Program-made: the position numbers and the translations under genes
The notes under the pieces: model-generated
The model's database searches: none
What the model saw: only the letters and a program-made list of their open reading frames with translations
Told to the model about the DNA's origin: nothing
In this document: piece after piece, positions 1 to 35,162 of the stretch
Layout of the letters: each line of letters begins with the position of its first letter
Position numbering within the stretch: the first letter of the stretch is position 1
Origin: Terrimicrobium sacchariphilum
Lineage (GTDB): Bacteria; Verrucomicrobiota; Verrucomicrobiia; Chthoniobacterales; Terrimicrobiaceae
Reading direction: 5' to 3'
Assembly: GCF_001613545.1 (NCBI RefSeq)
Contig: NZ_BDCO01000002.1
Span: forward strand, 3,534,001 to 3,598,000
DNA: 64,000 bases

Positions 1-806
1 CTATAGGCCCCCTGGTTCTGCCATGCCATCGTCCGGTAGATCATGCCAAAGATGATCATGAGCATGAACCAGAGGTTGAAATCCTTGATGGCAAAGGAGT
101 CGAACGGGTTCAGTAGCGACTCGCCAGCCGGGCGATTCTCCAGCACCTGGGATACCTCGCCCCAGCTGAACATCGTCATGAGAAAGGCGATCACGATGAC
201 AAAGATGACCATCGTGACCATGCCCTCGATGCAGTTGGTCACCATGAGCGTGATGAGGCCGCCGGAGAGCGTCAGCGACAGGCTGATGATCAGGAGCAGG
301 GCCATCAGCGGAATGTGCGTGGCGATTTGCCACCCAAACATGTTCACCGTCTGAGGAAGGCCGAGGAAATACGTCATGAATCTCGCCCCCACCACGGGGA
401 TGATGCCAAAGTTGGCCATGCCGGCGGCAAACCCGAGAAACCCGGTGAAGAGGCGGAACCGCTTGCTGTAGCGAATCTCAAAAAACTGCGCCAGCGTGAG
501 AGCGCGTGTCTCGCGGAAGCGATAGATCACCCATCCGCTGATCGTGACAATCAGCATGATGGGGATGCTCAGCCACGTCCACCACGAGAGAACGAAGCCG
601 GACCGCGATATCATCTCGAACGTTCCCACGAAGACCACCGCGCCCGCGCCCTGCTCTCCCTTTGCGACAGCCAGCAGGTAGCGACCGGCCATTCGTCCGC
701 CAGAGAGAAAGTCCGCGACCCCTTTCATGTAGCTTCGCGTGTAGACCGCGACAAAAAGGAGGCCAATAAGGGGTAGCGAGATCAGCAGCCAGTCGATCGT
801 ATGCAT
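1..806 (-). CDS. Sodium:solute symporter family protein (partial, C-terminus outside window)
   Basis: A membrane transporter of the SSS family that would couple sodium entry to uptake of a sugar or other small solute. The visible 268 residues start MHTIDWLLISLPL and contain successive hydrophobic segments separated by short loops, with the family-typical stretch FLSGGRMAGRYLLAVA near residues 33-48 and a GTFEMISRSGFVLSWW segment after it. The ATG at 806 is the first in frame and places the N-terminus directly in the first membrane helix. The gene runs off the left window edge. It lies 74 bp downstream of the secreted hydrolase gene on the same strand, so it probably imports sugars released by that locus; the substrate itself cannot be read from sequence. 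Confidence 0.85.
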   Translation of the reverse strand, partial: MHTIDWLLISLPLIGLLFVAVYTRSYMKGVADFLSGGRMAGRYLLAVAKGEQGAGAVVFVGTFEMISRSGFVLSWWTWLSIPIMLIVTISGWVIYRFRETRALTLAQFFEIRYSKRFRLFTGFLGFAAGMANFGIIPVVGARFMTYFLGLPQTVNMFGWQIATHIPLMALLLIISLSLTLSGGLITLMVTNCIEGMVTMVIFVIVIAFLMTMFSWGEVSQVLENRPAGESLLNPFDSFAIKDFNLWFMLMIIFGMIYRTMAWQNQGAY

Positions 807-30610: not shown

Positions 30611-31402
30611 ATGCCTGAACTCGCCGAGGTTGAATATTTCCGTAAGCAATGGGACGCCGGGATCGGCGGCAAAATCCTCCGCGTCGCCACGCACCCGAAG
30701 GCCCGCCTCTTTCGCGGCATCGACATGCCCACGATGGAGCAGACCCTCACCGGCGCAAAGCTCCTCGGCTCCGCCGCGCATGGGAAGCAGATGCTCTTTC
30801 GCTTCAGCACCGCCACGCTCGGCGTCCACCTCGGCATGACCGGCAAGCTCCACACCGCCGACCCCGACTTCGAGCCCGCCAAGCACGACCACCTCGTCCT
30901 TTACGAAAAATCCGTCGCGCTCATCTTCACCGACTTCCGCCTCTTTGGCCGCGTCCTGTTCAGTCCCGGCAAGGCGGACCCGGACTGGTGGACCGCCCTG
31001 CCTCCGCAAGTCACCGCTCCGGATTTTACCAAGGACGCCGTCGCCGCCTTCCTCGCCCGCCGCAAGCAGGCCCCGATCAAAGCCGTGCTCCTCATGCAGG
31101 AGCGCTTCCCCGGCATCGGCAACTGGATGGCCGACGAAATCCTCTGGCGCGCCCACCTCCTCCCCTCCCGCCGCAGCGGCACCCTCACCCCGGAGGAAAC
31201 CACCATCCTCTGGAAAGAAACCCGCGAAGTCTCCCGTCAGGCCCTCAAAACGATCGGCGAACGCTGGGAAGACCCGCCGGACACCTGGCTCTTCCATCAC
31301 CGCTGGGAAAAAGACCACGCCTGCCCCCGCTGCGGCCTCGACCTCCACCGCGCCCAAGTCGGCGGCCGCACCACCTGCTGGTGCGCCAAGTGCCAGCACT
31401 AG
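30611..31402 (+). CDS. mutM: Fpg/MutM-type DNA glycosylase
   Basis: Removes oxidised purines such as 8-oxoguanine and cuts the abasic site. 263 residues. The N-terminal catalytic segment after Met is PELAEVEYFRKQ; the strand region HLGMTGKLHT, the helix-two-turn-helix part FPGIGNWMADEIL, and the C-terminal four-cysteine zinc finger CPRCGLDLH...CAKC are all present. The last 230 bp are repeated at 32691-32920. The AT-poor pyrimidine-rich leader upstream has no obvious strong ribosome-binding site. Confidence 0.93.
   Translation: MPELAEVEYFRKQWDAGIGGKILRVATHPKARLFRGIDMPTMEQTLTGAKLLGSAAHGKQMLFRFSTATLGVHLGMTGKLHTADPDFEPAKHDHLVLYEKSVALIFTDFRLFGRVLFSPGKADPDWWTALPPQVTAPDFTKDAVAAFLARRKQAPIKAVLLMQERFPGIGNWMADEILWRAHLLPSRRSGTLTPEETTILWKETREVSRQALKTIGERWEDPPDTWLFHHRWEKDHACPRCGLDLHRAQVGGRTTCWCAKCQH
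31173..31402 (+). repeat. 230-bp direct repeat, copy A (mutM 3' end)
   Basis: This stretch covers the zinc-finger end of mutM including its stop codon. It is aligned without gaps to 32691-32920 with 15 mismatches out of 230 by my hand count. The two copies bracket 31403-32690, which carries the oxidoreductase and HxlR genes. Confidence 0.9.
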
Positions 31403-32690: not shown

Positions 32691-32920
32691 GCAGCGGCAC
32701 CCTCACCCCGGAGGAAACCGCCACCCTCTGGAAAGAAACCCGCGAAGTCTCCCTCCAGGCCCTCAAAACGATCGGCGAACGCTGGGAAGACCCGCCGGAC
32801 ACCTGGCTCTTTAATCACCGCTGGGAAAAAGACCACTCCTGCCCCCGCTGCGGCCTCGATCTCCACCGCGCCCAAGTCGGCGGCAGAACCACCTGCTGGT
32901 GTGCAAAGTGCCAGCAATGA
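32691..32920 (+). pseudogene. Truncated duplicate of the mutM 3' end (direct repeat, copy B)
   Basis: This copy encodes 75 residues of the Fpg H2TH end and zinc finger (SGTLTPEETATLWKETREVS; CPRCGLDLH...CAKC) with its own stop TGA. Compared with copy A there are 15 mismatches in 230; about half are silent and the frame is intact, so it looks more like a diverged allele than a decaying copy. It has no start codon or catalytic N-terminus. The AT-rich island begins at its end. Confidence 0.85.
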
Positions 32921-33002
32921 AATCAACCTTCTTGCAAACAATAGCTTAAATCTTCTTTATGAGGTACTGATATACGTAAATATACACACCAACTATCCCC
33001 CC

Positions 33003-34001
33003 ATGTGCCAAATCGAGGAAAAGCTAAAAGACATATCGGACAGTCTAAAAAAAGGCACTGCACCTCAAAAAGAGACCGTCAGAACCTTCTTGTCGTGGTT
33101 TGGATCTGAGCGGAGAGGATGGCGAACCGTAACCTGGATAAGAGAAACGCTGAAAAAATACGACCTCATCACTTATCCAGATTTCGAATCTACTTACATA
33201 GACGAATATATTTCCTTTTTTATCTCCAAGGGAGACGAATCAACATACACTACGCCCACACTTTCTGACCCAACCTACAGAGTCGGTCGACTGCCTGCAG
33301 CAAACAATCGCCCGTCATCCGTCAAACCCGACAGCACCTTACAGCAAATCATTACGATAATGCTTACAAGCGACTACTCTCAAGTCCCAGTAATGACAAG
33401 CTCCCGAGATGTCAAAGGCATCGTGAGCTGGAAGACAATCGGCAGTCGGCTCGCTCTTAAAAAAACTTGCGCTTTCGCACGAGACTGCATGGAGCCCGCT
33501 CAAACGATATCCTCTGAGGCCTCGTTATTCTCTGCAATCTCAATAATTACAACATCCGATTACGTTCTCGTTCGCTCCAGTGATCATCAAATTTCAGGAA
33601 TAATAACTGCGAGCGATTTTAACGAGCAATTCCAAATATTAGCGGAGCCGTTTATTTTGATTGGCGAAATTGAAAATGGAATACGTCGCATGCTGTATGG
33701 TAAATTTACTCTACCTGAACTAAAAATCGCAAAATCCCCAAGCGATGAACAGCGAGAGATTAACGGCATCTCCGATTTGACATTTGGCGAATACATTCAC
33801 CTTCTTGAACAAGAAAAATATTGGAAAAAGCTAAACCTTGAAATAGATCGCTCCGAATTCGTCAAACAACTCGATAAAATCAGGCTGATTCGCAACGACG
33901 TAATGCACTTCGATCCTGATGGTTTAGATCAGACGGATCTCTGTTCATTGAGAGAGTTCGCACAATTTCTCCGCAGATTACGTGATGTCGGCGCAATGTA
34001 G
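33003..34001 (+). CDS. CBS-domain protein with C-terminal HEPN-like domain (candidate nucleotide-gated RNase)
   Basis: 332 residues, no signal peptide. Residues 20-75 form an uncharacterised N-terminal module (TFLSWFGSERRGWRTVTWIR ending PDFESTYIDEYI). Residues about 104-152 and 158-210 look like a CBS pair (STLQQIITIMLTSDYSQVPV; ASLFSAISIITTSDYVLVRS), a fold that binds adenosine nucleotides. Residues about 212-330 are helical and contain IRNDVMHFD, in which R297-N-D-V-M-H302 fits the R-N-x3-H ribonuclease motif of HEPN domains. The ATG at 33003 is used; a GTG at 32901 inside mutM copy B is in frame but unlikely. It is 28 bp upstream of the nucleotidase gene. Activity is inferred. Confidence 0.7.
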   Translation: MCQIEEKLKDISDSLKKGTAPQKETVRTFLSWFGSERRGWRTVTWIRETLKKYDLITYPDFESTYIDEYISFFISKGDESTYTTPTLSDPTYRVGRLPAANNRPSSVKPDSTLQQIITIMLTSDYSQVPVMTSSRDVKGIVSWKTIGSRLALKKTCAFARDCMEPAQTISSEASLFSAISIITTSDYVLVRSSDHQISGIITASDFNEQFQILAEPFILIGEIENGIRRMLYGKFTLPELKIAKSPSDEQREINGISDLTFGEYIHLLEQEKYWKKLNLEIDRSEFVKQLDKIRLIRNDVMHFDPDGLDQTDLCSLREFAQFLRRLRDVGAM

Positions 34002-34029
34002 TTTATAAAACTAAAACAACCCCACCGCA

Positions 34030-34968
34030 GTGGCTTACCCGATAGAGAAGAAACTAGTTATCGCCATCTCCAGCAGCGCAGTGTTCAACATGACCGATGC
34101 TGACCAAGTTTTTCGAGAACAAGGCGAAGAAACCTATCGAGAGCATCAGCGCACCCACCTAGATATTCCGTTTTCAAAAGGTGTCGCATTTCCCTTCATC
34201 AGAAGGTTACTACATTTAAATCAGGTTTTCAAAAAAGAACTGCCAGTTGAAGTTGTTGTATTGTCGAGAAACGACCCAGATTCTGGAAGGCGCTTTTTCG
34301 CAAGTTGTGAGCACTATAAACTCAATATCTCGCGAGGTGCATTTTTGTGCGGAAAAGATCCATACCCATACATTGAATCATTTAACGCCTCATTGTTCTT
34401 GAGCGCAAATGACAACGATGTTCGCGGAGCCCTAAATGCCGGAATGCCCGCTGGCCTTGTACTTCCAACGAAGGCGCCAGACACCCCAGACTCTGACGAG
34501 TTACGCGTGGCTTTTGACTTTGATGGAGTTCTCGCAGGCGATGAAGCAGAACAGGTATATCAAGAAAAGGGACTCGATCTGTTTCATAATGCGGAAGTAA
34601 TAAACGCCAACAAGCCATTAAAGCCTGGCCCACTTCATGACCTTGCTAAAAAGCTATCGTATTGGCAAAAATTTGAAGCAAAAAGAAAAAAGGAAGATTC
34701 AAATTTTAGGCCACTACTTAGAGTTGCTATCGTCACCGCTAGAAACGCCCCAGCTCACGCGCGATTTGTAAGAACTCTGGAAGAGTGGGGGCTAACGGCA
34801 ACGGAAACATTCTTTATGGGCGGGATTGATAAGAGCCGCGTACTCCGTGTCTTCAAACCCCATCTATTTCTTGATGACCAGATCTCTCACCTAAAAGGAG
34901 TTGCCGACGAGATCCCCTGCGTACACATCCCTTTCGGGATCGTTAATCGAAAACAAGCAACAAGCTAG
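34030..34968 (+). CDS. Cytosolic 5'-nucleotidase (cN-I-like)
   Basis: 312 residues of the 5'-nucleotidase family related to vertebrate cN-I enzymes, which dephosphorylate AMP and deoxynucleoside monophosphates. The N-terminus KKLVIAISSSAVFNMTDADQ and VEVVVLSRNDPDSGRRFF are family signatures. HAD-type catalytic motifs are AFDFDGVLAG (D163, D165), the VTARNAP segment and FLDDQ. Start is GTG 34030 because the fold begins directly after it. No signal peptide, so it should act in the cytoplasm. It shares the AT-rich composition and direction of the CBS-HEPN gene. Confidence 0.82.
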   Translation: MAYPIEKKLVIAISSSAVFNMTDADQVFREQGEETYREHQRTHLDIPFSKGVAFPFIRRLLHLNQVFKKELPVEVVVLSRNDPDSGRRFFASCEHYKLNISRGAFLCGKDPYPYIESFNASLFLSANDNDVRGALNAGMPAGLVLPTKAPDTPDSDELRVAFDFDGVLAGDEAEQVYQEKGLDLFHNAEVINANKPLKPGPLHDLAKKLSYWQKFEAKRKKEDSNFRPLLRVAIVTARNAPAHARFVRTLEEWGLTATETFFMGGIDKSRVLRVFKPHLFLDDQISHLKGVADEIPCVHIPFGIVNRKQATS

Positions 34969-34978
34969 ATTTTCAAAG

Positions 34979-35143
34979 ATGCCGGACCTGCACTTTGAAT
35001 TGGCAAGCGTACCCCGCCAAGTGGGGATCATCATGATTCTCTACCACACCAACCACGGGCGGCAGGCTGCGGAGGTCTTCTTTTTCAATCGGGCCGGGCT
35101 CGTCTGTCGCGCGGCGGCGCATTACACCGACTTGGTGAATTGA
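34979..35143 (+). pseudogene. C-terminal fragment of an NTF2/SnoaL-like protein
   Basis: After the island, composition returns to host style and this frame encodes about 54 residues (PDLHFELASVPRQVG, then GRQAAEVFFFNRAGLVCRAA and HYTD), matching the end of SnoaL/NTF2-like proteins where the last strands read AEVF-x-F-x-x-x-G and AAHY. The N-terminal two thirds are missing. I read it as the right-hand edge of the island insertion or deletion. Family assignment is by recalled pattern. Confidence 0.45.
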
Positions 35144-35162
35144 CCGCTCCGCTACCCTTCCC

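Follow-up and report, generated by a model that had tools for sequence, protein, structure and literature searches.

A DS-11-family gene beside a 5'-nucleotidase gene in an AT-rich island of Terrimicrobium sacchariphilum

Gene content and setting of the locus

The window, the 64,000-nucleotide stretch of a T. sacchariphilum contig that we analysed, contains two complete open reading frames that lie 28 bp apart on the plus strand, the first encoding a CBS-domain protein and the second a predicted 5'-nucleotidase (Table 1). The GC content of the upstream gene is 43.7% and that of the nucleotidase gene 46.0% (GC3 of 0.45 and 0.43, respectively), compared with a GC content of ~0.60 and a GC3 of ~0.7 for nearly all other genes in the window and with 60% GC for the genome. 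A preliminary description of this DNA had placed two neighbouring genes in an AT-rich island, a reading that these figures (one strand, a 28 bp gap, 44–46% GC against 60%) bear out, and the motifs it had picked out (WFGSERRG, PDFESTYID, R297/H302 within RNDVMH, and D163/D165 of the nucleotidase) all lie where it had placed them. Chance does not account for them, given the invariance of R297, N298, H302 and F303 in 74 of 74 homologues and the score of 394.6 bits that the nucleotidase reaches with PF06189. Homologues also favour the start codon chosen there for the upstream gene, the ATG at 33003; a longer reading frame of 366 aa, from the GTG at 32901, is only an upstream lengthening that crosses the tail of the mutM 3' duplication. 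A scan for promoters and terminators gave no more than shuffled sequence did.

Table 1 Features of the locus (positions in the window)
Feature	Position	Strand	Details	Basis
Island between flanks conserved in a congener	32691..35160	.	Congener G438 has 1148 bp of other DNA instead	Comparison with congener
Second copy of mutM (fpg) 3' end, 226 bp	32691..32916	+	Left island edge, directly upstream of DS-11 gene	94.7% identical to 31173-31398
DS-11-family gene	33003..34001	+	332 aa, ATG start	ORF call, NF053863 match
DS-11-specific N-terminal module	33003..33239 (residues ~1-75)	+	WFGxxRRG...TxPDFExxxID signature	Homologue alignment
CBS pair	residues ~90-215	+	Two stretches	PF00571, 1.9e-10
Y125 codon, equivalent of DS-11 Y157	33375..33377	+		F/Y in 74/74 homologues
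CBS2 GIITASD motif	33597..33617	+	G199, T202, D205	Three residues invariant in 74 homologues
Predicted C-terminal HEPN domain	residues ~205-332	+		HEPN_Swt1 matches in family, invariant motif
RNDVMH, predicted HEPN catalytic motif	33891..33908	+	R297, N298, H302	R, N, H invariant in 74/74 homologues
PF06189 5'-nucleotidase gene	34030..34968	+	312 aa, GTG start, D163/D165; HAD fold, cN-I type; PADLOC candidate PDC-S08	Profile matches

Comparison of the upstream protein with profile collections identified it as a member of the DS-11 family. Specifically, residues 27–323 match the NCBIfam model NF053863 (DS11_antiphage, 'CBS domain-containing anti-phage protein') over its full length (model positions 1–305 of 305) with a score of 400.8 bits, the cut-off being 260; Pfam returned the CBS pair only, and none of the PADLOC models matched. 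DS-11, reported in the DefensePredictor study (Science 2026, PMC13092281), is a one-protein CBS-HEPN phage-defence system, and in the E. coli protein either the CBS substitution Y157A or mutation of the HEPN catalytic residues abolishes defence (PMC13092281). The window protein and DS-11 have in common an N-terminal module, a CBS pair, the RNxxxH HEPN motif and an aromatic residue at the adenine contact, and the score is far above the curated cut-off; they differ in that the window protein has ~43% identity to the member from E. coli and in that a nucleotidase gene adjoins its gene. This divergence, together with an identity of at most 64% to any of the homologues found, counts against the assignment. 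Nonetheless, we consider it very probable that the upstream gene encodes a DS-11 anti-phage protein that works alone as a CBS-gated HEPN RNase and for which the nucleotidase is not an obligatory partner. Phage defence by the window copy is predicted through its family membership; the experimental defence is that of E. coli DS-11.

The downstream protein matches both Pfam PF06189 (394.6 bits) and the PADLOC model PDLC04900, which represents the candidate PDC-S08 (421.3 bits), over its full length, and its D163 and D165 correspond to the conserved DxD pair of the HAD fold. A sequence search found no solved structure of a relative. Although the window nucleotidase thus resembles other members of PF06189/PDC-S08, no pairing of this family with a CBS-HEPN protein is known, and it has no proven role in defence. 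The preliminary description had proposed that the two genes make up an undescribed defence or stress system. A role in defence is upheld through the DS-11 family, but the system is not a new one: the CBS-HEPN protein is DS-11, which with its defence role is already published and modelled in NCBIfam, and the nucleotidase belongs to a candidate family that PADLOC already lists.

The left flank of the island (mutM and genes for a flavodoxin-like reductase and an HxlR regulator) is conserved in two genomes of the same genus, and the right flank (a gene for a beta-helix protein) in one of these congeners, G438. The intact mutM gene of the window encodes ETTILWKE where the stray copy and both congeners have ETATLWKE, and because the latter form is common to them the stray copy may derive from a related strain that carried the island behind mutM. 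In addition, the window DS-11 groups inside a beta/gamma-proteobacterial clade (support 0.986), and its identity to the DS-11 homologues of two Verrucomicrobia-named genomes is just ~41%. The replacement DNA in the congener, the stray mutM copy and the proteobacterial placement of DS-11 lead us to suggest that the island is best read as laterally acquired. The presence of the flanks in congeners that lack the island also agrees with acquisition. Between mutM and the reductase gene, one congener locus (L176, in G438:C3, 9188–9843) carries a different insertion of ~650 bp with a lipoprotein-like open reading frame, and the neighbourhood of mutM therefore looks like a variable spot.

Sensor and effector domains of the upstream protein

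The CBS pair named in the preliminary description was recovered as two PF00571 matches, and in an AlphaFold2 model of the whole protein (mean pLDDT 92.8) this part resembles solved CBS pairs, many of which contain AMP, ADP, ATP, Ap4A, c-di-AMP or SAM (VIA-align Z up to 16.5). CBS domains bind AMP and ATP. The second CBS domain contains GIITASD, which we take to be the canonical ribose/phosphate-binding motif of CBS domains. Because the first CBS domain lacks the G-x-x-T-x-x-D form, we infer that each protomer has one canonical nucleotide site, formed by the half with G199, T202 and D205 together with the aromatic residue at position 125. Tyrosine 157 is the predicted adenine contact of the DS-11 CBS domain, and the authors of that study propose an adenine derivative as the regulator of the HEPN nuclease (PMC13092281). 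We placed Y157 by means of a 365-aa E. coli homologue with a tyrosine at position 157, in DYSQLPVM, rather than by means of the published DS-11 sequence.

The N-terminal module appears to be peculiar to DS-11. In 31 of 32 genomes a profile of the module hit nothing but the DS-11 gene, once per genome; in the remaining genome DS-11 is split over two frames. We considered whether the module might be a general sensor common to other defence proteins and rejected the idea, since the 32 genomes and the plasmids gave DS-11 only. The module is absent from DS-11 homologues of 262–287 aa in relatives of Geobacter (L076, L078, L085, L086 and L089) and from the homologue in genome G030 (L002). Several of the short homologues in Geobacter relatives have neighbours in common and may have a different role.

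In the C-terminal domain, R297, N298 and H302 of the predicted HEPN catalytic motif, along with F303, show no variation across the 74 aligned homologues. Sequence similarity supports a HEPN domain: PF18731 (HEPN_Swt1) matches 34 of these 74 proteins, with 2e-5 as the best value, although it does not match the one from the window. CBS domains took up the results of fold searches with the whole model, and we therefore modelled the C-terminal domain by itself (mean pLDDT 90.8) and searched with that. Foldseek returned nothing significant for it (best E 0.69). VIA-align placed a Csm6 structure first (Z 8.4 over 102 residues, 3.4 Å), which is the closest solved structure to this domain, with a second Csm6 (Z 6.6), HEPN-MNT (6.1), AbiA (6.1) and MntA-HepT (5.6) among the top matches, a list to be read with the caution that helical bundles reach middling Z by chance. 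The resemblance in fold to HEPN proteins is suggestive but not decisive, and the modest best Z and the Foldseek result are points against reading the domain as the HEPN domain of DS-11. Taking the family matches and the invariant residues together with these, we hold the HEPN assignment with moderate confidence. The CBS-HEPN architecture that had first been read at this locus is supported accordingly, by PF00571 for its CBS part and by the family sequence matches and the RNxxxH residues for its HEPN part. The arrangement is reminiscent of Csm6/Csx1, the CARF-HEPN RNases of type III CRISPR systems, in which a nucleotide-binding regulatory domain is likewise fused to a HEPN RNase; their sensor, however, is a CARF domain rather than a CBS pair, and the window protein is not a member of that family.

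Neighbourhoods of the DS-11 and nucleotidase genes

The preliminary description had presented the two genes as a module, a reading said to fall if their homologues did not co-occur beyond chance. We compared 88 further DS-11 loci, drawn from many phyla: 80 from GTDB (the best 80 of 160 confirmed, found in a scan that relied on conserved peptide patterns), four from IMG/VR, three from plasmids and one from genome G030. In 84 of the 88 the sequence continues for at least 1 kb downstream. The nucleotidase was found by tblastn at 0 of these 88 loci, of which the GTDB part is the best 80 of 160, and by a family profile HMM at 0 of 87 (all but G030, with the same GTDB part). It was absent from two further viral DS-11 loci as well. 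Conversely, DS-11 was found at none of the 47 nucleotidase loci outside the window. The 166 immediate neighbours of DS-11 include no family more than three times and no recurring partner. In the loci compared, the homologues are thus not adjacent; the module reading falls by the measure set for it, and we reject the CBS-HEPN protein and the nucleotidase as a conserved two-gene system on these gene neighbourhoods.

As far as the collections show, the adjacency of DS-11 and the nucleotidase in the window is unique. Because the nucleotidase is absent from the 88 other loci examined, we regard it as probably a chance neighbour, and on present evidence the pairing is new but incidental; judged by its neighbourhoods, DS-11 would act as a one-protein system. 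Against a stand-alone DS-11 with a chance neighbour stands the arrangement of the genes in the window, which are co-directional, 28 bp apart and alike in their atypical GC content, such that co-transcription here is possible. The same features (adjacency, one strand, the short gap and the shared low GC) could be taken to favour a lineage-specific, two-component form of DS-11, in which the nucleotidase would break down the adenine nucleotide bound by the CBS pair, or AMP derived from that nucleotide, and so provide an off-switch or a threshold for the RNase. PF06189 includes AMP-preferring cN-I enzymes, which would suit a CBS ligand of this kind, and there is precedent for a related pairing in DS-9, a defence system in which a HAD phosphatase is paired with a different enzyme (PMC13092281). 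If this were true, DS-11 would have recruited an AMP-type 5'-nucleotidase that clears the ligand of its sensor. We think it very improbable, given the neighbourhood counts on both sides; moreover, E. coli DS-11 defends alone (PMC13092281), and 37 of 50 DS-11 genomes have no nucleotidase match at all, the other 13 carrying a PDC-S08 gene somewhere but never beside DS-11.

What the nucleotidase does, if it is not a partner of DS-11, can be read in two ways. In the phylum sample, 48 of the 388 genomes have a member of PF06189/PDC-S08, and the neighbours of the family's genes form no recurring context, of defence or otherwise. Since the known chemistry of PF06189 is nucleotide turnover, the gene may encode a metabolic salvage or overflow enzyme that was carried along by chance and has no role in defence, a reading to which we give about an even chance; its place in an acquired, AT-rich island shared with a defence gene is untypical of a housekeeping copy. 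It is also possible, though we think it rather unlikely, that two defence genes, each working alone and unrelated to the other, share an integration spot and make up a small defence island, with the nucleotidase itself acting against phages, for example by nucleotide depletion. The listing as PDC-S08 and the presence of members on many plasmids favour a separate defence gene of this kind, as does the member on the E. coli plasmid pMTY18781-2 (L122, 5001–5966), which has the gene for the anti-phage sirtuin Dsr1 on one side and that for a phosphorothioate-dependent restriction enzyme on the other, close to an integrase gene. The breadth of the family and its lack of a recurring context weigh against it, another plasmid member is surrounded by metabolic genes, and we found no experimental validation of PDC-S08 in defence. 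A search of viral contigs for the nucleotidase gave no match. In either case the nucleotidase is probably an independent mobile gene, and possibly a separate defence gene, that shares the acquired island with DS-11 without being its partner.

Predicted mode of action and distribution of DS-11

For the preferred reading, a stand-alone DS-11, we propose the following. The protein would work alone, probably as a homodimer, with its CBS pair binding what is presumably an adenine nucleotide at the one canonical site per protomer. Phage infection would change the CBS ligand, upon which the C-terminal HEPN domains would act as an RNase on a putative RNA target, through R297 and H302, and keep the phage from growing, a shutdown of translation being the probable means. 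The nucleotidase, as a separate mobile PF06189 gene, would lie outside this mechanism. That nucleotides gate an RNase had been suggested in the preliminary description; for the window protein such gating is supported as a predicted function, with an adenine nucleotide as the presumed ligand and this copy presumably active.

These findings extend DS-11, a recently validated defence protein, to another bacterial lineage and remove a tempting two-gene hypothesis for a CBS-HEPN protein and a nucleotidase. The survey depicts DS-11 as a stand-alone mobile gene, and the conservation across phyla of its invariant HEPN site and its adenine pocket narrows the range of possible triggers.

In the phylum sample only the window's own genome, among 388, has a match above the NF053863 cut-off, and G030 has a second, shorter homologue that is stand-alone and falls below the cut-off (245 bits); at E 0.001 the phylum-wide search was dominated by unrelated CBS proteins, and we used only the match above the cut-off and the long sub-threshold match in G030. 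Of 5426 complete genomes, 127 carry a near-identical E. coli member, two of the matches listed being annotated already as 'CBS domain-containing anti-phage protein', and at the two E. coli loci that we read a tyrosine recombinase adjoins DS-11 and the nucleotidase is absent. No DS-11 was found in a search of a phage collection. At three loci (L031, L033 and L034) a DS-11 homologue is a single cargo gene inside an apparent cluster of prophage structural genes, and at two others (L099, from Salmonella enterica subsp. diarizonae, and L041) the DS-11 reading frame appears broken.

A scan of 146 DS-11 neighbours with PADLOC models (threshold 1e-10) matched 65 families, Thoeris, AbiE, Dnd and restriction genes among them; a scan of 46 window genes matched two. 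This suggests that the surroundings of DS-11 are rich in defence genes, although it is only a rough comparison of family counts, not of proteins, made without a matched control. One of the 46 window reading frames matches PDLC01990 (CARF_Beta-galactosidase fusion, 4.6e-22); because the window encodes glycoside hydrolases, this match probably reflects the enzyme part of the model rather than a CARF defence protein.
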